Positions 245 to 27,443 of a stretch of DNA of 27,443 nt are shown piece after piece. Origin of the DNA: a virus; IMG/VR virus record IMGVR_UViG_3300031966_000109, positions 1 through 27,443 of that record, one strand, 5' to 3'. The translations under genes and the position numbers were made by a program. Position 1 is the stretch's first letter. Each line of letters begins with the position of its first letter. The notes below the pieces were generated by a model, which saw only the letters and a program-made list of their open reading frames with translations, searched no databases and was not told where the DNA came from.

Positions 245-856
245 TTGCAAAAGCCCGGCTGTCATGCTAGACTACAGTCCAGAAACAACGTCTTCCAGGA
301 AGCCACTCAGGGAGCGTCTCCTGAGCTTCTTGAGATCCTCACAAACGCCCAGGAGTTCCTCTCAACAACCGTCGCCGAGAGCACCAAGGAAGTCTACTCG
401 CGCGACTGGCGAGCATTCAGTCGGTGGTGCGGTGAACACTCTCTTACCGACCTGCCTGCCGCGCCGGAAGTGGTCGCCTGGTATCTCACTTCCCTTGCGA
501 TGAAAGGCTTTCGTGTGCCTACCATTCGCAGACATTCGGCAGTGATAGCCGCTGCGCATAGGTCATCCGGCTATCCCACACCAACGAGCCACCCAGCTAT
601 TAAAGAGCTACTCAGGGGAATGACACGAAAGATCGGAACTCCACCGAAACCGGTGGACGCGCTGCTGTCTGAAGATATAAAGAGGATCGCCCGGGCGCTG
701 CCGGATACCCTTATCGGCACACGGGACAAAGCACTTGTCCTCCTGGGTTTTGCCGGAGCGTTTCGCCGCTCGGAGATCGTAGGGCTGGATGTAGATGATG
801 TCAGCTACCGTGACGAGGGACTGGTGATCCTGCTCAGGCACAGCAAGACGGATCAG
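245..856 (+). CDS. Tyrosine recombinase/integrase, 5' exon (residues 1-204)
   Basis: This is the N-terminal 204 residues of a phage-integrase-family site-specific recombinase. Such enzymes cut and rejoin DNA through a tyrosine-phosphate intermediate. The start is TTG at 245, with GAGGTGAT just upstream. Residues about 34-125 form the helical, SAM-like core-binding domain. The catalytic domain begins near 140. R174 in the AFRRSE motif matches the box I arginine and K201 in HSKTDQ matches the catalytic beta-hairpin lysine. The exon stops after Q204, and the frame then runs into intron RNA and gives an unrelated tail ending near 916. With the 3' exon at 3173-3565 it forms a 334-residue protein, normal for the family. 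Whether it moves an element in this window is unknown, as no attachment sites were seen. Confidence 0.88.
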
Positions 857-1453
857 GGGCGCCCGTTCGGGCGTCGTATGCTTGTGGGGCCGCTTGTGCG
901 GTCAGGACCACCGTGACGAAGCAGCGTCACGTCCCTACCTCCGGCGTCTCGGCGGGCGACACACTGCCGGGATGGTAAGCTCTCGGAGGGACAAGGGGGA
1001 GGACGGGGTTGCCTGTGAACCCTATGTGGCCTCCTCTGGGAAGATGGATATGGCTAAGACTGGATTGTCTGATTCTCAACGTCTGGCCTTGAAGCTTGAG
1101 GGATGCCTCTACCAGGAAATCGGGGCATAGGAGTCGCGATCCGATAATTGGTCGTCGGGTCGCCGGGATGATGACCACGGTCATCGGGAGGTTAGTGGGC
1201 TGCTGAACCCGTCTGCCTGACTCCTCCGGGCATGCGTCGCATGCAATGGCGTGTATGAGGAGCCTAAGTCCATCGGATAAAGTGCATATGATCGCTACCG
1301 GGGAAGCTCGGAGGATGATACCAGGTGTGCGCTGGAATGCCTCCGGGCGGCAGGGGCCACATAGTAGCTGTGAAGCGGGGTAATGCCCGTGGAGCCAAGG
1401 TGAGCCAGTAGTATCAGTGATTTCGAGTACGAACGAGAGGACAAGACCTCACA

Positions 1454-3052
1454 ATGATCGTCGAACATCGACTTCACAGACTCGCAAGACTCGCGAGCAC
1501 CGACACGAACAAGCGATTCGACCGGCTATACCGGGAGATCGCGCGGAAGGACTTTCTGCTCTATGCCTACGAGCAGATCAAGGACAACGACGGATCATCC
1601 ACGCCCGGTATCGACGGCAAGAGCCGAGCGAACTGGACCCTCAAGGACCTTGAGGCAACGGTCGCCGCGCTCCAAGACGGCACATACCGTCCGCAGCCGG
1701 TCCGGCGCGTGTATATCCCGAAGAAGTCCGGCAAACTCCGGCCGCTCGGCATACCCACCTTCACGGATCGCGTGGTGCAAAGCGCCGTGACACTGATTCT
1801 GGAAGCCCTCTACGAGCCGATCTTTCTGAACTGCTCGCACGGCTTCCGGCCGAACCGCAGCTGTCACACAGCGTTTCACACCATTCGCGACACCCCGCAG
1901 GTGCGAATGGACTGGGTGGTGGAAGGTGATATCCAGGGATGCTTCGATAACATCTCCCACCAGATCCTGCTGCGCCTCTTACAGAAGCGCATCAGGGATG
2001 ATCGGTTTCTCAGACTGATCGCGCAGTTCCTCAAAGCAGGATACTTCGAGCGCGAGATGTGGAACCCGACGAAAGCCGGAACGCCGCAGGGCGGCATTGT
2101 CTCCCCGATTCTTGCCAATATCTACCTCCACGAGATGGACGTGTATATTGAGCAGACCTACGGAGCCAATCAAGCCCTGCCTGAGACCGCCAAGGAGCGC
2201 AGAGCGCGTTTCAATAAGGAACACGCTTGCGTTGCGACGAAGATCCACTACCGTCGAAAGCTGCTTGCCGCCGGCAAAGGCAAGCCGAGTTTCCGCGAGG
2301 AAGTCCGGCAGCTCATAAAACGGCGCAAGCAACTGCCTTGCACGGAAGCGCCGATCAAGCCCAGGATCACCTATGTCCGCTATGCCGATGACTTCGTGAT
2401 AGTGCTGCGCAGTCTGCCCAAGGCGCGTGCGCAGGCCATCAAGGAAGACCTGACACGCATGGTCGCGGAGAACCTCCGCCTGGTCCTGCACCCAGAGAAG
2501 ACGGCGATAACCCACATAACCGATGGGTTCACCTTCCTCTCGTACAAGTTCCTCTCCAGGAAGAAGAGGAACGGTAAGGGACAGCCCCGCGTGAAGATGG
2601 TCATTCCCTACAAAGCCATACGCTCGGTCGTCGAGGGCATCCGCGATATATGCAGACACCGCCATCATGGAGAACGCGAAGTGCTGACCCAACTGAACGG
2701 CAAGATACGCGGGTGGATGAACTACTACACCTGCGTGGATGCGCCGGGAGAGGTCTTCTCCCGGGTTCGGTCACGAGCATGGTGGGCCTACGCCCACTAT
2801 GTGGCGGGAAAGCACCGCACGACAATCGCGCAGGCGGCGGACAGATGGATACGGCGCAGCCCACCCACCTCCAAGGACCCCAAATGGGGACCGAAGACGT
2901 GGTGTCATAGTACCACGGCCAAGGGTGGGAAGCGGCTGACGTTCTATCTTATCAACCGCAACCTGAAACGCAAGAACCTCCATGATGCAGCCCTGGCGAC
3001 AGAACGCTGGGGCTGGGGCGTGCTAATGCAGATACCGGCGGTAACGGGTTGA
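1454..3052 (+). CDS. ltrA: Group II intron-encoded reverse transcriptase/maturase (intron 1)
   Basis: A 532-residue intron-encoded protein of the LtrA type. It binds its own intron RNA, helps it splice, and copies it into DNA during retrohoming. The start is ATG at 1454, followed by MIVEHRLHRLARL. The reverse transcriptase fingers and palm are complete: PGIDG near residue 51, RPLGIPTF, the HGFRP motif, the GTPQGG motif, and RYADDFVIV holding the catalytic aspartates. The maturase (X) domain follows, with RGWMNYYTC. No HNH endonuclease with paired CxxC motifs is seen at the C-terminus, so mobility may depend on nicked or replicating target DNA. The reading frame shows no break. It is clearly homologous to the enzyme at 6228-7826 but well diverged from it, so this is not a recent duplication. 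Confidence 0.95.
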   Translation: MIVEHRLHRLARLASTDTNKRFDRLYREIARKDFLLYAYEQIKDNDGSSTPGIDGKSRANWTLKDLEATVAALQDGTYRPQPVRRVYIPKKSGKLRPLGIPTFTDRVVQSAVTLILEALYEPIFLNCSHGFRPNRSCHTAFHTIRDTPQVRMDWVVEGDIQGCFDNISHQILLRLLQKRIRDDRFLRLIAQFLKAGYFEREMWNPTKAGTPQGGIVSPILANIYLHEMDVYIEQTYGANQALPETAKERRARFNKEHACVATKIHYRRKLLAAGKGKPSFREEVRQLIKRRKQLPCTEAPIKPRITYVRYADDFVIVLRSLPKARAQAIKEDLTRMVAENLRLVLHPEKTAITHITDGFTFLSYKFLSRKKRNGKGQPRVKMVIPYKAIRSVVEGIRDICRHRHHGEREVLTQLNGKIRGWMNYYTCVDAPGEVFSRVRSRAWWAYAHYVAGKHRTTIAQAADRWIRRSPPTSKDPKWGPKTWCHSTTAKGGKRLTFYLINRNLKRKNLHDAALATERWGWGVLMQIPAVTG

Positions 3053-3061
3053 TATTACGGA

Positions 3062-3095
3062 GAGCCGTGTGCGGGGAAACTCGCTCGCACGGTTC
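3062..3095 (+). ncRNA. Group II intron domain V (intron 1)
   Basis: This 34-base hairpin begins GAGCCGTGTGCGGGG and ends CGCTCGCACGGTTC, with a loop containing GAAA. It carries the AGC catalytic triad and bulged stem of group II domain V, the ribozyme active site. The reverse transcriptase stop is 10 bases upstream. Domain VI (about 3096-3172), which supplies the branch-point adenosine, follows directly. Its counterpart in intron 2 (6177-6210, - strand) is almost identical. Confidence 0.92.
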
Positions 3096-3172
3096 GAGGA
3101 GCGCTTGGGGGAAACGTACCCGGCTGGTTCTACACGAGCCGACCGGGTGGCGCGCCCCCACTCGACTCCTGT

Positions 3173-3565
3173 CGGGGCGAGGGCAGGTGGGTCGGTATTC
3201 CTAATGGCAAGAATCCTGATACCTGTCCCGTGACTGCTCTCAAGATATGGCTGGAGAAATCCGGCATTTCGGAGGGCGCTATCTTCAGAGGTCTCGACAG
3301 GCATGGCAACATCGTATCAGGACGACTGTCCAGAAGGTCTGTCGGGGAGATCATCAAGCGGACTGCACGGTCAGCAGGGCTGGATGCATCGAAATACAGC
3401 GGGCATTCTCTCAGAAGCGGCCACTGCACTGAGGCATCTCGGTCCGGCGTCGCCGAACACATCATCCGTCAGCACACAGGCCATTGTTCTGCTGCCTCAC
3501 TCCAGCCTTATGTGAGGCTGGGGAGACTCTTCGAAGAGAACAGCGCGGACGCGCTCGGTCTGTAA
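3173..3565 (+). CDS. Tyrosine recombinase/integrase, 3' exon (residues 205-334)
   Basis: This exon supplies the C-terminal 130 residues of the recombinase begun at 245. The frame from 3173 reads RGEGRWVGIPNGKNPDTCPV, the usual strand and proline turn after the catalytic lysine hairpin. It then carries box II HSLRSG (H282, R285), TGH (H308) and the nucleophile Y317 in QPYVR. All six catalytic positions of the family are therefore present once the intron is removed. The stop is TAA at 3563-3565. Without splicing only an N-terminal fragment lacking the nucleophile would be made, so recombinase activity should depend on intron splicing. The gene converges on the HD-domain gene, whose stop lies 70 bases further on. 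Confidence 0.88.
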   Translation, partial: RGEGRWVGIPNGKNPDTCPVTALKIWLEKSGISEGAIFRGLDRHGNIVSGRLSRRSVGEIIKRTARSAGLDASKYSGHSLRSGHCTEASRSGVAEHIIRQHTGHCSAASLQPYVRLGRLFEENSADALGL

Positions 3566-5759: not shown

Positions 5760-5963
5760 TTACGTTGCCTCGAAGCCTCTGAAGATGCCCTCGGCATACT
5801 GCTTCCTGTTCTCGTGCACCCAGAGCGCCGTGGCGTAATGCTCCATCTCATATGCAAGCTCGACTACCATGGGCACGTCAAGCATGTTGGTCTTGCCGGA
5901 GAGCCTGACTGCTTTCAGACCCTCCAGCACATCAGCCGGGATCGGCACCTTAGTTCGCTCCAT
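5760..5963 (-). CDS. Small DUF5049-like protein
   Basis: A 67-residue protein beginning MERTKVPIPADVLEGL and ending YAEGIFRGFEAT. The pattern (IPADVLEGL, then TNMLD, then YAEGIFRGF) resembles small proteins called DUF5049, recalled from similar amidoligase neighbourhoods. No enzyme motif is visible and the function is unknown. The start is ATG at 5963, with GGAGGTGGGCA immediately before it. A longer upstream frame is unlikely because it lies wholly within the amidoligase end. The first 14 bases overlap the end of the amidoligase gene, so translation is probably coupled and the protein may work with that enzyme. Confidence 0.7.
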   Translation of the reverse strand: MERTKVPIPADVLEGLKAVRLSGKTNMLDVPMVVELAYEMEHYATALWVHENRKQYAEGIFRGFEAT

Positions 5964-6113
5964 TGCCCACCTCCGATGTCTCGACGGCAGGCTTCGGGTT
6001 CGTCGGCTTCGGCCTGCCGTTTTTCCAGGCGGCGTCACCCGGCATCGCATTCAGGAGATGCTTTCTGGCGGTCTTGAACTCGTCGCCGATCAGTCCAAGG
6101 TGAAGGAGGAACA
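5950..6113 (-). CDS. Amidoligase, 3' exon (C-terminal residues)
   Basis: This is the last 54 codons of the amidoligase begun at 9185, separated from the rest by intron 2. After joining, the frame reads YDFR then VFLLHLGLIGDEF and KTARKHLL, with an arginine/valine junction codon split by the intron (g|tg). The end is hydrophilic (NGRPKPTNPKP). The joined reading frame is 939 bases, exactly 313 codons including the stop at 5950-5952. The exon overlaps the start of the DUF5049-like gene by 14 bases. In the unspliced frame these codons have no proper start. Confidence 0.83.
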
Positions 6114-6176
6114 ATAGGGTCGAAGGAGGGCGCGTTACCGGTCCGAAGACCGGCACGTTTCCCTCCAGCGCCCTCC

Positions 6177-6210
6177 GAACCGTGCGAGCGGCTTTCACCG
6201 CACACGGCTC
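6177..6210 (-). ncRNA. Group II intron domain V (intron 2)
   Basis: On the minus strand this 34-base hairpin reads from GAGCCGTGTGCGGTG to CCGCTCGCACGGTTC, with a GAAA-type loop. It is the ribozyme catalytic hairpin and carries the AGC triad. It differs from the intron 1 copy only in and beside the loop. Domain VI (about 6114-6176) follows and includes a CCGGTCTTCGGACCGG stem-loop. Confidence 0.92.
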
Positions 6211-6227
6211 TCCAGAAACCACTGGTA

Positions 6228-7826
6228 TCACCAGTAGAGACCTCTATAGCGAAGTCGGCCTTTGTCGGTGATATCCCGTGCCAGCTTATGCAGCGATTTG
6301 CGCGGAACGGATGCGCAGACCAGAAAGACTGTGCGCTCGACGCCACTCTGCAGGGTCGTTGTCGCACACCAGGTTTTCTGCCCGCCCCGAGGGTTACTCG
6401 GTTGCGGCGGACATCTGCGTATCCAACGCTGCGCTGCTTGGCTCAGGTACATCTTGTGCTTGCGGCCCAGGTAGCAACCGTATGCCCAGAATGTATGGTG
6501 TAGCACCTTCTGGAACACGTGGGCTGGGGCTGAAGCACAGGCGTAGTAGTTCATCCAGCCGGTCAGCTTTGCGTTGATTCGGCGGATGATATCTACCTCG
6601 TCGTCCTGAACCCGTTGGCACAGGTCCCTGACTTGCTGTATTGTCTCCCGGGCGGAGTCATAGGGGATGACCAACTTGACCCGTGGCGTTTGAGTCGGGA
6701 TTCTCTGCCTGGCCACCATCTTGTAGCCAAGGAAGATGAATCCGTCGGTGATGTGGGTGATTGTTGTCTTCTCCGGGCTTAGGACCAGCCGGAGATTCTC
6801 CCACAGCCATCGAGTCAGGTCTTCTTTCATCTCCTCCGCTCTTGCCTTGGAGAGGTTTCGCAGTACGATCACCCAGTCGTCGGCGTACCGCACATAGGTG
6901 AGCTTGGGCTTTATCGGTTCCTTCAGATACGGGGTCTGTTTGCGCTGCGCTATAAGATGCCACAGCCGCGCACGCAGTTCTTCATCGGTGCCATCCGGTT
7001 TCTGTTTGCCGGCAAGCATCTCGCGGATACGCTGGATCTGCCCCCCGATACGGTTGTAGTCGGGGTTGGTCCTGGCGTATTTCTCCTGGGGTGTCTGCGG
7101 CTGTTGCCGGTTGGCTCCATAGGTTTCCTCGATATACCTGTCCATTTCGTGCAGGTATATGTTGGCAAGAACCGGTGATACGATCCCGCCCTGTGGCGTA
7201 CCGACCTTGGTCGGGTTCCACATGTCCATCTCGAAGTATCCTGCCTTCAGGAACTTCGCTATGAGCTTCAGGAACCGGTCATCACTGATGCGCTTCTCAA
7301 GCAGGCGCAGCAGGATGCTGTGGCTGACATTATCAAAGAACCCTTCGATGTCGCCCTCAATAACCCAATCCATCCTTGCCTTCGGATAGTTGTAGACGGC
7401 GTGGAGCGCCGTGTGGCAACTGCGCCCTGGTCTGAAGCCGTGTGAGCAGTCCAGAAAGACCGGCTCATATATGGCCTCAAGAACCAGCTTTATGGCGCTT
7501 TGCACCACCCTGTCCGAAAACGTGGGTATTCCAAGCGGTCGGAGCTTCCCCGACTTCTTGGGGATGTAGACGCGCCTTACCGGGTACGGCGTATAGGTGC
7601 CGTCTTTGAGCATTGCTGCCACCCTTTCGGCTTCGGCGGGGTTCCAGTGTTGCTTGGTCTTACCGTCTACGCCGGGCGTGTATGCCCCCTTGTTGTCTTC
7701 TATCTGTTCGTAAGCGAACATAAGGAAGTCCACCTGTGTGATCTCCCGGAACAGTCGGTCAAACCGCTTGTCCGGGTTCTGCTTGGCAAGTCTTGCCAGT
7801 CTGTGAATACGATGAGCTACGATCAT
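6228..7826 (-). CDS. ltrA: Group II intron-encoded reverse transcriptase/maturase (intron 2)
   Basis: A 532-residue homolog of the intron 1 enzyme, the same length but with many substitutions. It has the same N-terminal pattern (MIVAHRIHRLARL), PGVDG, RPLGIPTF, HGFRP, GTPQGG and the catalytic RYADDWVIV motif, followed by the maturase domain (TGWMNYYAC). No HNH endonuclease zinc cysteines are seen. The start is ATG at 7826, just after the GACAAGACCTCA element shared with intron 1. The frame is intact, so the protein should be able to help its own intron splice. The stop is 18 bases before domain V. Confidence 0.95.
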   Translation of the reverse strand: MIVAHRIHRLARLAKQNPDKRFDRLFREITQVDFLMFAYEQIEDNKGAYTPGVDGKTKQHWNPAEAERVAAMLKDGTYTPYPVRRVYIPKKSGKLRPLGIPTFSDRVVQSAIKLVLEAIYEPVFLDCSHGFRPGRSCHTALHAVYNYPKARMDWVIEGDIEGFFDNVSHSILLRLLEKRISDDRFLKLIAKFLKAGYFEMDMWNPTKVGTPQGGIVSPVLANIYLHEMDRYIEETYGANRQQPQTPQEKYARTNPDYNRIGGQIQRIREMLAGKQKPDGTDEELRARLWHLIAQRKQTPYLKEPIKPKLTYVRYADDWVIVLRNLSKARAEEMKEDLTRWLWENLRLVLSPEKTTITHITDGFIFLGYKMVARQRIPTQTPRVKLVIPYDSARETIQQVRDLCQRVQDDEVDIIRRINAKLTGWMNYYACASAPAHVFQKVLHHTFWAYGCYLGRKHKMYLSQAAQRWIRRCPPQPSNPRGGQKTWCATTTLQSGVERTVFLVCASVPRKSLHKLARDITDKGRLRYRGLYW

Positions 7827-8410
7827 TTGAGGTCTTGTCCTCTCGTTAGTTTAGGTATTCACTGGTCTCCTGGCCCCCTTCGCTCCGTGAGCATTACCTC
7901 ACATCACAGCTACTATGGGGCCTCTGCCGTCTGATGGGCATTCCCTCGCTAACAGGGTCAACCATCCCACCAGACTTCTCCGGTAGCTAAGTGCGCATTT
8001 GTTCGATGAACTTAGGCTTCTCATTTACGCCGTTGGCATGCGATGCATACCTGTTGGAGCCGGGCGTTGGGGTTGGACAGCCCATTGCCCTCGGTTCAGA
8101 GTGTCCCTTTCATGTGTCTTCGCGTAAAGCACATTTAGACTCCAGCACCCCGTCGGCTTGGTGAGGTGCCCGTACGATTCACGGACAGACGTTGAGATTC
8201 AGCCAGTCTAGGCTTAGCCATATTCATCTGCCTTGAGGAACCTCTACAGCGGCCAAAGCCCGCCTGTGTTCCCCGTTGTCCCGCGAGAGCTTGCCGCCCC
8301 GGACCGGTTATGCGGTCCGACACGTCGCGGTAGGTCGTGCCTCTGTCCAGGCACGATGGTTTAGGCTGCTAATGCAGCCCCACTTACGCACTTAACCCGA
8401 ACGGACGCCC

Positions 8411-9185
8411 CCCGGAAGTCATACTTGGCGCTGGCGGGATTGAACTCCCGCTTGCGGCTTGATGCTCCTCTGCTGTTCAGAGCCTTCGCAGCGATGGCAA
8501 GCACGAACTGAATGGCGGCTTTCACCTTGCCAGCGTGCAGAGTAGCCTGGAACCATCGGAACTCGACGGTGCCTCGGTACCAAACGTTGTGCAGATTCAC
8601 ACCGTGGTACCTCGTCTGATCGTAGTGCTGCGGGTGGTGATTGTGGTAGCCGTACCAGATGCGGTTCATCTGCTCGCGGGTCTTTGGACGGCTGCGCTCT
8701 ATCTTGGCGATGAGTTCCGAACTGACCGGCTTCGTGTAGTTCCTGAGCCTCGATTCCTCGACACCGAGCGCTGTCAATATCAGCGGCTCCTGCTTGTGCA
8801 CGATCTTGGCAAGGTTGCCGAGGGTCTTACCATCAAAGGCGGTCGCGTCAACGTGAATGTGGATGCCGCACTTCTGGTCGACGGTAGCTCCGCATCCGCG
8901 GATCGCGCGCACCACCTCTTGCAGCGTTTGAATATCTTCGTAGTTGAGGACCGGCGAGACCACCTCGGACCTGAGATTGGCCGGCACGCTTGTTAGTGAG
9001 GAGTCGGCAACGACCATCCACGTTCGGCCTCGCTCATCGACTACGTGCCAGGGATCGTAGCAGCTTGGGATTCCGACGTGCTCGACGCTTCCTCCCACCA
9101 CGGACTGGATCGCGCGAGCCACGTCCCCACGGCTCCGCTTGATAGTTTCGATCTCGACCCCGAACCTGAGTTCCTGGAGTTTCAC
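8411..9185 (-). CDS. Amidoligase (glutamine-synthetase-like fold), 5' exon
   Basis: The first 258 residues of a 312-residue Amidoligase_2-type enzyme. These ATP-dependent ligases use a glutamine-synthetase-like fold to join a carboxylate to an amine or ammonia. Expected motifs are present: FGVEIET (E11, E13) on the first strand, SEVVSP (E74), CGIHIHVD (H109, H111) and TVEFRWF (E208, R210), which supply metal- and nucleotide-binding side chains. The start is GTG at 9185, with GGAGGT seven bases upstream. The exon ends in YDFR plus one base. Reading on into the intron gives a false tail ending at 8361. It is the first gene of the run to the DUF5049-like, amidotransferase and cyclotransferase genes. 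The substrate is unknown; a peptide or amino-acid metabolite is likely from the family. Confidence 0.85.
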
Positions 9186-24573: not shown

Positions 24574-24810
24574 TTATCCAAGTGTCCTCCACTTGATATT
24601 TACTGGCGGGAGAAGCGGCGTGCCGGGATTCTTTGGTGCAATCGCAAGCACCGACTCATCATCTACGGCGGGTAACTTCTGCTTAATGCTGAGCTTGACG
24701 AAGTGATGTTGGAAGCGTAAGATGCCAGTCAGGCGGGCATAAGGCTGATCGGCCTGTAAATAACGCCCGGGGAGGTAACAGTGTAGCCAAACAGAAAGGA
24801 GCAACATCAT
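24574..24810 (-). pseudogene. Possible remnant of a tail gene upstream of the hub
   Basis: An open frame of 78 codons ends 7 bases before the hub gene. The last 50 residues (LSIKQKLPAVDDESVLAIAP and NPGTPLLPPVNIKWRTLG) are protein-like and placed as a tail gene normally is. The first part overlaps the promoter, leader and start of the divergent secreted-protein gene, so the true start is unclear. It could be a gene truncated when the neighbouring DNA was joined, or a chance frame. No family was recognised. Confidence 0.3.
24695..24723 (+). promoter_or_regulatory. Sigma-70-type promoter for the secreted-protein gene
   Basis: TTGACG at 24695-24700 and TAAGAT at 24718-24723 are exactly 17 bases apart, a strong sigma-70 pattern. 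Transcription would begin near 24730, giving a leader of about 80 bases before the ATG at 24809. The leader carries GGGC...GCCC and GGC...GCC pairings that could fold, but no known riboswitch was recognised. AGAAAGGAGC just before the ATG is the ribosome-binding site. Confidence 0.6.
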
Positions 24811-27443
24811 GATTCGTGCAACCAGAACAGTGTCGTTAGGGTTTCTGCTGCTCGTGCTCTTGGGATTCGCGGTTGGTGCTCACGCAGCCCCGGCCCAAGA
24901 CACGACAGAAGGCAGCATTCCGTGGTGCCTGAGCAGCAAGTCTGATGGCGATTCGGTCACTCTGACCTATCAGCAGGTCATGTGGCGCGGCGTAAGTGGC
25001 CGGTCATTTGCCATCAAGGAATGGACGGACAAGTGGCTGAAAAGCCGACCGCAGATACTCGTCGTGAGCACAAGGCCGCTGCCGGTCGAACCTTGGTGGA
25101 CGGTCGAGGTAACGGGAACACTTCAAACGCTGAGAACTGCCAGTGTTGAGCAGCGAGTAATAATAACATCGCCATCGCAGGTCTTCGTATACTGCAACGA
25201 TAAGGGCATTCCTGCACCAGTCATCTTCAGGGGATGGGACTGGCCTGGCATTACGAAGAAAGCATTATCTGAGCTTGTGCCCCAAACGACGGCGGTGACG
25301 ACCCTAGATGAATCACCACTCCCCCCAGCCGACGATCCGCCACCTCCTCCTAATCCTCCCGCTGCCGGTTCCAAGGACTCACTCAAGCACTTGCCCGACG
25401 GTGCTCCGGTCAGTGTGAATGGCGCGATTGTCTCCGCAAGCTTCAGCGACTACGGCTTCTTCTACGTGGAGAAAAGCGACCGTTCGTTTGGCATCTGGAT
25501 AAGCTCGAACACTTACGTCTACGACGGTCAACTCGTAGACATCACGGGCAAGATGGGCACAGGAGGAGGGGAACGTGCCGTAGTCGCCGACCGGAATGGC
25601 GTCACAATTCTTGACTACAACACTCATCCCCGGCCAAGGGAAGTAGGTATGTGTAACCGAGACCTTGGTGGGGGCGCAGTTCTTCCGTTTACCCCACCAG
25701 TCGGAAAGCGGGACGATGTCGATAACGCCGGTCTCAACAACACCGGTCTCTTGGTGCGAGCTTGGGGCAAGGTGACGGCGGTAGACAGCCAGAACAGAAT
25801 CTTCTGGATTGACGACGGTTCGGCAGTCGCCGCCGACGGCGGGCATACGGGTGTCAAGGTATATGACACTACGTATGATTCACTGCCAGCGGTCAATGAC
25901 TATGTAACCCTAAGTGGTGTTTCTGCCGCCGAATGGCCGGAAGGCGCAAGCTCCAGCATCCGGGTCGTATGGAAAGTGCCCCCGGTTCCTGTTTCCACTC
26001 AACCTGGTTCGGGGACGATTTCCGGCACGATAACGGCAACGGGTGCAGATGGCAAAACTGTTAGGGTTTACTGCGCCAGTGCTTCAACTACGGCCACTTT
26101 TTCGGGCAATACCGCTAACTACACCCTAGCCGTTCCCTACGGTGACCATGCTGTTACCGCAAGCATACTCGGCTACAAGACCACTACGCAACTTGCCACC
26201 GTCAACTCGACAACCCCGGTTGACATCGACTTCTCCCTGTCTGCTCTCCAACGAAGGATAGACATAGTTGCCTCTCCCGAGCGTATTCCGCCAGACGGCG
26301 TGAGCCAGATGACAATCACCGCAATCGTCAGAGACGAGGAAGGTAGGCGGTTCGGGAATGAGTCCGTAACCTGGAATGTGGACTTAGGCACGGTCATTAG
26401 CTCGGACTCGACGACAGATGCAGTGGGAGAGGCAAGACTGGTTCTGCAGGCCCCGAGTACTTCAGGAACTGCTAATGTGTCGGTGACTGTCGGTGGTATG
26501 ACTGTTACAGGATACGCTGAGTTTGCCTCACTGACTGCTCCTTCCATACGTATTATCGAACCGATTGAGAATGACACTGTTTCAGGAACGATGACAATCA
26601 AGCTTCAGGCTTGGGATTACTATGGGGCGAAACCGGGCATCACTAACATCGGTGTTAGTGTAGATGACGAACCGCTTGCTTCGGCGGCTCCTACACGGCC
26701 TGAAGTAATCTGGCAAACCTACCGCTATGACAACGGAACACACGTTATTAGAGCGGCAGTCGCCGATGGTGACCAAGAAACGGGACTTTCGCAAGCTGTA
26801 ACAGTGACGACTTCCAACGGCATCTATGGTTTGAATGTGGTCAACGGTCTGTTTGACGCCAATGACACCGACCCTGCAAAGCGTACAACGACAATTACCG
26901 CTTACCAGCAGCAACCTACAGACTGGGAGATAGAGTTCAAGAAGCGGGGAGCGTCCTCTCCGACCAAAGTATTTACGGGCACTGGAACTACGATCAATGC
27001 CACTTGGGATGGTACAGACTCCAACGGTAATCCTGCACCTCCTGGGCAATATGGTGTGACAATTCGCGCAGGCGGGACACAAGGGCTGTTGTCTCAGAGC
27101 TACGAGTTCTCGTTATGGGATTACATTGTATTCCTCAGAACGAACCCTGATGCACCAACAGCATTGCTGGTTGAGGGTTACCATTTCGGGAATAACAACG
27201 AACTATTGGAGATAGTTGAAGATGCCTGCGAGCATCGTGGTTTTCAAGTCATCACTATCCCCGACAGGTACGCAACTTGGGACAGATTCCATTTCTTCAT
27301 GAACGTCTTTGAGCCGACAGTGCTGTACGTGGTCAGCCACGGCGACTATGAGATCAGAAGTGGGCAAAGCTGCTTACCGGCATTGTTACCTCAAGTATCG
27401 AGGTTCATGCTCAAGGATGCTTGGGTGAATGCCTACCGTCCGC
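24809..27443 (+). CDS. Large secreted multidomain protein (partial, runs off the right edge)
   Basis: At least 878 codons are open from the ATG at 24809, with no stop before the window ends. The N-terminus has a clear Sec signal peptide (basic MIRATR, hydrophobic LGFLLLVLLGFAVG, then AHAAPA cleavage region). A PPPPPNPP linker lies near 175-183. Two OB-fold-like domains follow (VNGAIVSASFSDYGFFYVEK and LVRAWGKVTAVDSQNRIFWID). Next come a carboxypeptidase-regulatory-like domain (GTISGTITATGADGKTVRVY), an invasin/BIG1-like Ig domain (VASPERIPPDGVSQMTITAI), another Ig-like domain (IRIIEPIENDTVSG) and a FlgD-like DSNGNPAPPGQYGV domain. The end (LLVEGYHFGNNNELLEIVED, then TVLYVVSHGDYE) may start a caspase-like or other alpha/beta domain with an HG motif. 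The role is unknown; it is probably an extracellular protein. Confidence 0.85.
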   Translation, partial: MIRATRTVSLGFLLLVLLGFAVGAHAAPAQDTTEGSIPWCLSSKSDGDSVTLTYQQVMWRGVSGRSFAIKEWTDKWLKSRPQILVVSTRPLPVEPWWTVEVTGTLQTLRTASVEQRVIITSPSQVFVYCNDKGIPAPVIFRGWDWPGITKKALSELVPQTTAVTTLDESPLPPADDPPPPPNPPAAGSKDSLKHLPDGAPVSVNGAIVSASFSDYGFFYVEKSDRSFGIWISSNTYVYDGQLVDITGKMGTGGGERAVVADRNGVTILDYNTHPRPREVGMCNRDLGGGAVLPFTPPVGKRDDVDNAGLNNTGLLVRAWGKVTAVDSQNRIFWIDDGSAVAADGGHTGVKVYDTTYDSLPAVNDYVTLSGVSAAEWPEGASSSIRVVWKVPPVPVSTQPGSGTISGTITATGADGKTVRVYCASASTTATFSGNTANYTLAVPYGDHAVTASILGYKTTTQLATVNSTTPVDIDFSLSALQRRIDIVASPERIPPDGVSQMTITAIVRDEEGRRFGNESVTWNVDLGTVISSDSTTDAVGEARLVLQAPSTSGTANVSVTVGGMTVTGYAEFASLTAPSIRIIEPIENDTVSGTMTIKLQAWDYYGAKPGITNIGVSVDDEPLASAAPTRPEVIWQTYRYDNGTHVIRAAVADGDQETGLSQAVTVTTSNGIYGLNVVNGLFDANDTDPAKRTTTITAYQQQPTDWEIEFKKRGASSPTKVFTGTGTTINATWDGTDSNGNPAPPGQYGVTIRAGGTQGLLSQSYEFSLWDYIVFLRTNPDAPTALLVEGYHFGNNNELLEIVEDACEHRGFQVITIPDRYATWDRFHFFMNVFEPTVLYVVSHGDYEIRSGQSCLPALLPQVSRFMLKDAWVNAYRP

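Follow-up and report, generated by a model that had tools for sequence, protein, structure and literature searches.

Analysis of a 27,443-nucleotide phage contig (IMG/VR record IMGVR_UViG_3300031966_000109, here called the window) revealed a group II intron, designated intron A, that separates the catalytic Lys from the His-Arg-His-Tyr boxes of a Cre/Xer-like phage integrase gene, together with a sister intron, designated intron B, in the phage's amidoligase gene (Table 1). We consider it highly probable that intron A is a mobile group II intron whose splicing, with the aid of its maturase, restores a 334-residue recombinase, and that intron B does likewise for the amidoligase.

Table 1. Coordinates of the two split genes and their introns in the window
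Feature	Position	Strand	Details and evidence
Exon 1 of tyrosine recombinase	245..856	+	204 codons, start TTG; N-terminal part with R174 and K201
Group II intron A	857..3172	+	2,316 nt; 5′ GGGCG ... 3′ CGACUCCUGU; empty site L010, junction scan, RF00029, aligned 5′ ends
Intron A reverse transcriptase/maturase	1454..3052	+	532 aa; YADD at residue 310; TIGR04416, RVT_1, GIIM
Intron A domains V and VI	3060..3172	+	RF00029 match 3060-3166; fold; bulged A at 3165
Exon 2 of recombinase	3173..3565	+	H282, R285, H308, Y317 and stop codon
Exon 2 of amidoligase gene	5950..6113	-	Empty sites, junction scan
Group II intron B	6114..8410 (8410-6114)	-	2,297 nt; 5′ GGGCG ... 3′ CGACCCUAU; RF00029, junction scan
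Intron B reverse transcriptase/maturase	6228..7826	-	532 aa; TIGR04416 344.3 bits
Exon 1 of amidoligase gene	8411..9185	-	Amidoligase_2 207.8 bits for ORF 8361-9185; empty sites L011, L012

The first-pass annotation had proposed that joining 245-856 to 3173-3565 restores one frame carrying the full set of catalytic residues, and recomputation reproduced these coordinates exactly: the joined exons form a single open frame of 334 residues in which R174, K201, H282, R285, H308 and Y317 are all present. Its further claim that the unspliced gene yields a fragment without the nucleophile also holds, since that frame runs into a stop after 223 codons, before the HRHY half. Against Pfam Phage_integrase (PF00589) the joined protein scores 58.8 bits (cut-off 27.1), compared with 24.5 and 34.6 bits for the two fragments taken separately, and its R-K-H-R-H-Y residues within this domain identify it as a tyrosine recombinase of the phage integrase type. 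PHROGs likewise assigns it as integrase, and its nearest solved relatives are Cre and XerD.

A search for intron-free homologs, which the first-pass annotation had suggested, recovered the same recombinase uninterrupted in another phage record (L010, IMGVR_UViG_3300050581_000179; 74% identity), along with six relatives from Chloroflexota genomes (38-46% identical). All seven align without gaps across 856/3173, the comparison in which that annotation had expected a wrong junction to fail. The residues flanking the junction read D-Q-R-G-V-G-R in L010 and D-Q-R-G-E-G-R in the joined window protein. When 900 junctions lying up to about 15 nt from each end were compared (299 in frame), 856/3173 scored highest against L010; the domain VI fold and the alignment of relatives at their 5′ ends lead to the same intron ends. 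As judged from these comparisons, the insertion is more than chance: L010 encodes the recombinase uninterrupted, and the best junction falls at the expected ribozyme ends. The catalytic column of H308 is His in seven of the eight aligned rows and Trp in L063. Recombinase relatives in Chloroflexota reach only 36-46% identity and so name no host.

Differences between the recombinase exons and L010 fall mostly at third codon positions (36/28/114 at positions 1/2/3 in the 204 codons of exon 1; 35/17/71 in the 130 codons of exon 2). Most of this divergence may, however, be older than the insertion.

Intron A carries the hallmarks of a mobile group II intron, namely a domain V/VI core, a reverse transcriptase with a maturase domain, and a precise insertion with an empty site. 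These results confirm the proposal that a group II intron separates the catalytic boxes. Domains V and VI match RF00029 with 50.4 bits (gathering 40, E 2.7e-7), and domain VI folds with a single bulged A seven bases upstream of the last intron base. The maturase frame is intact and scores 352 bits against TIGR04416 (cut-off 300); profile search found RVT_1 and GIIM and recognised no endonuclease domain. The Rfam D1-D4 models gave no match in intron A, and a scan for EBS1-IBS1 contacts in introns A and B returned no convincing co-located pairing. A search for the 5′ junction of intron A found it in 0 other viral contigs, and the intron is seen in one record only.

Intron B, on the opposite strand, belongs to the same lineage, and the A and B maturases share 60% identity. 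Intron B matches RF00029 with 59.3 bits at 6212-6114 (gathering 40), and its domain VI contains a bulged A close to the 3′ end; its maturase exceeds the TIGR04416 cut-off of 300 and, like that of intron A, has no endonuclease domain recognised. Its score against Rfam D1-D4 (21.6 bits) lies below the gathering value of 35. Two records, L011 and L012, carry the amidoligase gene uninterrupted with the sequence DFRVFLL, which the 8411/6113 junction restores exactly; this junction was the best-scoring against both among 900 choices (297 in frame). Seven records were searched for the maturase, and it is absent from the five phage records G003-G007, both empty-site records included. The sequences compared here show the exact insertions, the empty sites, unbroken exons and maturase frames, and the folds of domains V/VI. 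Intron B also recurs in a further record that matches the window at 99.9% identity over 7.6 kb and lacks the recombinase end. The first-pass annotation of 245-3565 did not mention this second intron at 8410-6114.

That a misassembly joined the intron into the gene is very improbable: although intron A is known from one record, both of its ends match ribozyme ends, a conserved protein is restored to the base, and its sister was independently assembled elsewhere.

Comparative folding of the first 600 nt of introns A and B revealed a shared, covarying structure. The consensus energy was -182.9 kcal/mol, against -106.7 kcal/mol in 60 column shuffles (sd 8.4, lowest -128.1), and compensatory pairs numbered 22, compared with an average of 13.7 in the shuffles (highest 20). 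Between the two maturases, 169/126/282 differences fall at positions 1/2/3 of 527 codons, mainly at the third position, the pattern expected of functional proteins.

In the window, genes for amidoligase, DUF5049, glutamine amidotransferase, gamma-glutamyl cyclotransferase and HD-domain proteins lie in a row on the minus strand (9185-3635), adjoined by baseplate and tail genes. A match to the Rfam family Pseudomonas sRNA P10 at 21394-21315 (minus strand; 40.8 bits, gathering 37) lies within a PAAR-like coding frame and is probably coding sequence that resembles the sRNA. An 878-aa open frame at 24809-27442 (plus strand) runs off the contig and has no PHROG match.

The boundaries of both introns depart from the group II consensus GUGYG...AY (PMC4424553, PMC4028801). 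Each begins with GGGCG; intron A ends in UGU and intron B in UAU, so that the last two bases are GU and AU, respectively. Because three relatives with GTGCGYCCG (L022, L023 and L025) start at the position aligned with GGGCGYCCG of introns A and B, we read GGGCG as the GUGYG position with the second base changed from U to G. A 5′ splice site lying 19 nt further in, at GTATG of intron A and GTGCG of intron B, was also considered; it would leave 19 nt in the mRNA or require a 5′-extended intron, and it was rejected because the GTGCGYCCG relatives start at the GGGCGYCCG position and the frame-restoring junctions agree. Exceptions have been published, including UUGCG...GU (PMC7923331), GGGCG in organellar models (PMC6867995), and GGGCG and NU splice motifs in circularly permuted group II RNAs (PMC8637638). 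The permuted RNAs, as described there, share the GGGCG start with introns A and B but have rearranged domains and no ORF.

Among introns with a fixed 5′ end, which most other maturase loci lack, five GGGCG introns restore their host frame on joining: A, B, L020, L040 and L068. This count leaves out L021, whose 5′ end is ambiguous, and L067, whose end was not located. L020 (Chloroflexota genome, G255:C71) splits an integron integrase at PHTFRHSF|ATHLLQ, right after the HTFRHSF motif, and the joined protein scores 457 bits against TIGR02249 (cut-off 265); Rfam and simple repeat searches gave no clear finding of attC sites or cassettes beside it. L040 (Chloroflexota genome, G435:C40) interrupts a gene that bears a weak likeness to TrbC/VirB2 pilin (Pfam E 0.0011, below cut-off), and L068 splits a lysozyme/C40-peptidase gene on a Priestia megaterium plasmid (NZ_CP023318.1). 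After their 5′ GGGCG, L020 and L040 carry a hairpin like that of introns A and B.

A maturase tree of 44 rows placed A, B, L020, L040 and L068 in one nine-row clade (support 100/100). The clade also holds L037 and L038 and two rows with unresolved ends. GGGCG is not universal within it, since L037 joins cleanly in radC at GTGCG and L038 looks alike by eye. The three further GGGCG introns have the start and the maturase clade in common with introns A and B, whereas their host genes differ; in addition, the L020 maturase is longer (607 aa versus 532 aa), while A and B have no recognised endonuclease domain.

We propose that intron A entered the sense strand of the integrase gene between the catalytic boxes, with reverse splicing and reverse transcription by its own maturase as the most likely route. 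Its RNA would fold with the maturase and splice out, joining base 856 to base 3173 to yield the 334-residue recombinase, and intron B would act alike in the amidoligase gene. Both introns are thus predicted, from their anatomy, to be capable of splicing and mobility. If splicing occurs, full-length recombinase would require intron removal. Such dependence would be a passive cost of intron carriage, and nothing seen here would need an evolved switch. The ‘gating’ of one element by another that the first-pass annotation had raised would in this sense mean just that the intact enzyme needs splicing; a regulatory meaning would be drawn from the likeness to the lactococcal intron Ll.LtrB.

The host gene of Ll.LtrB (L066) encodes the relaxase of a lactococcal conjugative plasmid, and the intron is reported to lower relaxase mRNA and conjugation 3-4-fold (PMC6003770). 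Like intron A, Ll.LtrB is a group II intron that encodes a maturase and interrupts the gene for a DNA-processing enzyme belonging to another mobile element; in both cases the intact enzyme depends on splicing. The two differ in host enzyme (relaxase there, tyrosine recombinase here), the Ll.LtrB maturase is not part of the clade that holds the A and B maturases, and the effect on transfer was measured for Ll.LtrB, whereas intron A is known from its sequence. By this likeness, splicing, or the spliced intron re-attacking the mRNA, could set the level of recombinase and with it phage integration and excision. We regard this as unlikely. It has the Ll.LtrB experiments as precedent (PMC6003770), and a distant intron of the lineage shows like anatomy within an integron integrase (L020); however, nothing in the window indicates regulated splicing, the sister intron sits in a non-mobility gene (amidoligase), and relatives occupy other kinds of gene, among them a lysozyme/peptidase gene and radC.

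It is equally doubtful that intron A no longer splices and that the recombinase is a pseudogene. The deviating GGGCG and GU boundaries, the EBS1-IBS1 pairing that the scan did not find and the missing Rfam D1-D4 match for intron A are consistent with such decay. Against it, both exons are open and retain the full set of six catalytic residues, the maturase has an unbroken frame, the domain V/VI fold is normal, and four further GGGCG introns restore their host frames.

On a broader and distinctly improbable view, the GGGCG lineage may repeatedly settle in the active-site codons of site-specific tyrosine recombinases, as in the phage integrase and in the integron integrase of L020. Splicing or re-attack would then set the amount of recombinase, and the retroelement would restrain the shuffling of cassettes as well as the integration of the phage.

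A 2025 survey of group II introns in phage genes (Merk, Jones & Eddy, PMC12350094) drew on data that included IMG/VR (9,229 of 15,722,824 contigs), with D5/D6 models, stitched exons and intron-free homologs as evidence. The phage introns described there interrupt phage coding genes in sense, as does intron A; that survey placed the 5′ splice site at GWYRG, whereas introns A and B have GGGCG. The words ‘integrase’ and ‘recombinase’ are absent from its main text. Integron-associated group II introns have been described at attC or in cassettes (PMC9229058, PMC8876359), and our searches of the open-access literature turned up no report of a phage integrase or integron-integrase gene interrupted by a group II intron. 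For restraint of one mobile element by another, the Ll.LtrB/relaxase pair serves as precedent, and GGGCG ends have already been published.

Collectively, intron A represents a precise, comparatively documented mobile ribozyme in a phage integrase gene, with empty sites identified for two introns of one phage. The exact GGGCG insertions enlarge a variant that boundary searches based on GUGYG would miss. Intron A also offers a chance to ask whether the interplay between Ll.LtrB and its relaxase extends to site-specific recombinases, and the integron integrase split by L020 provides a second place in which to ask it.
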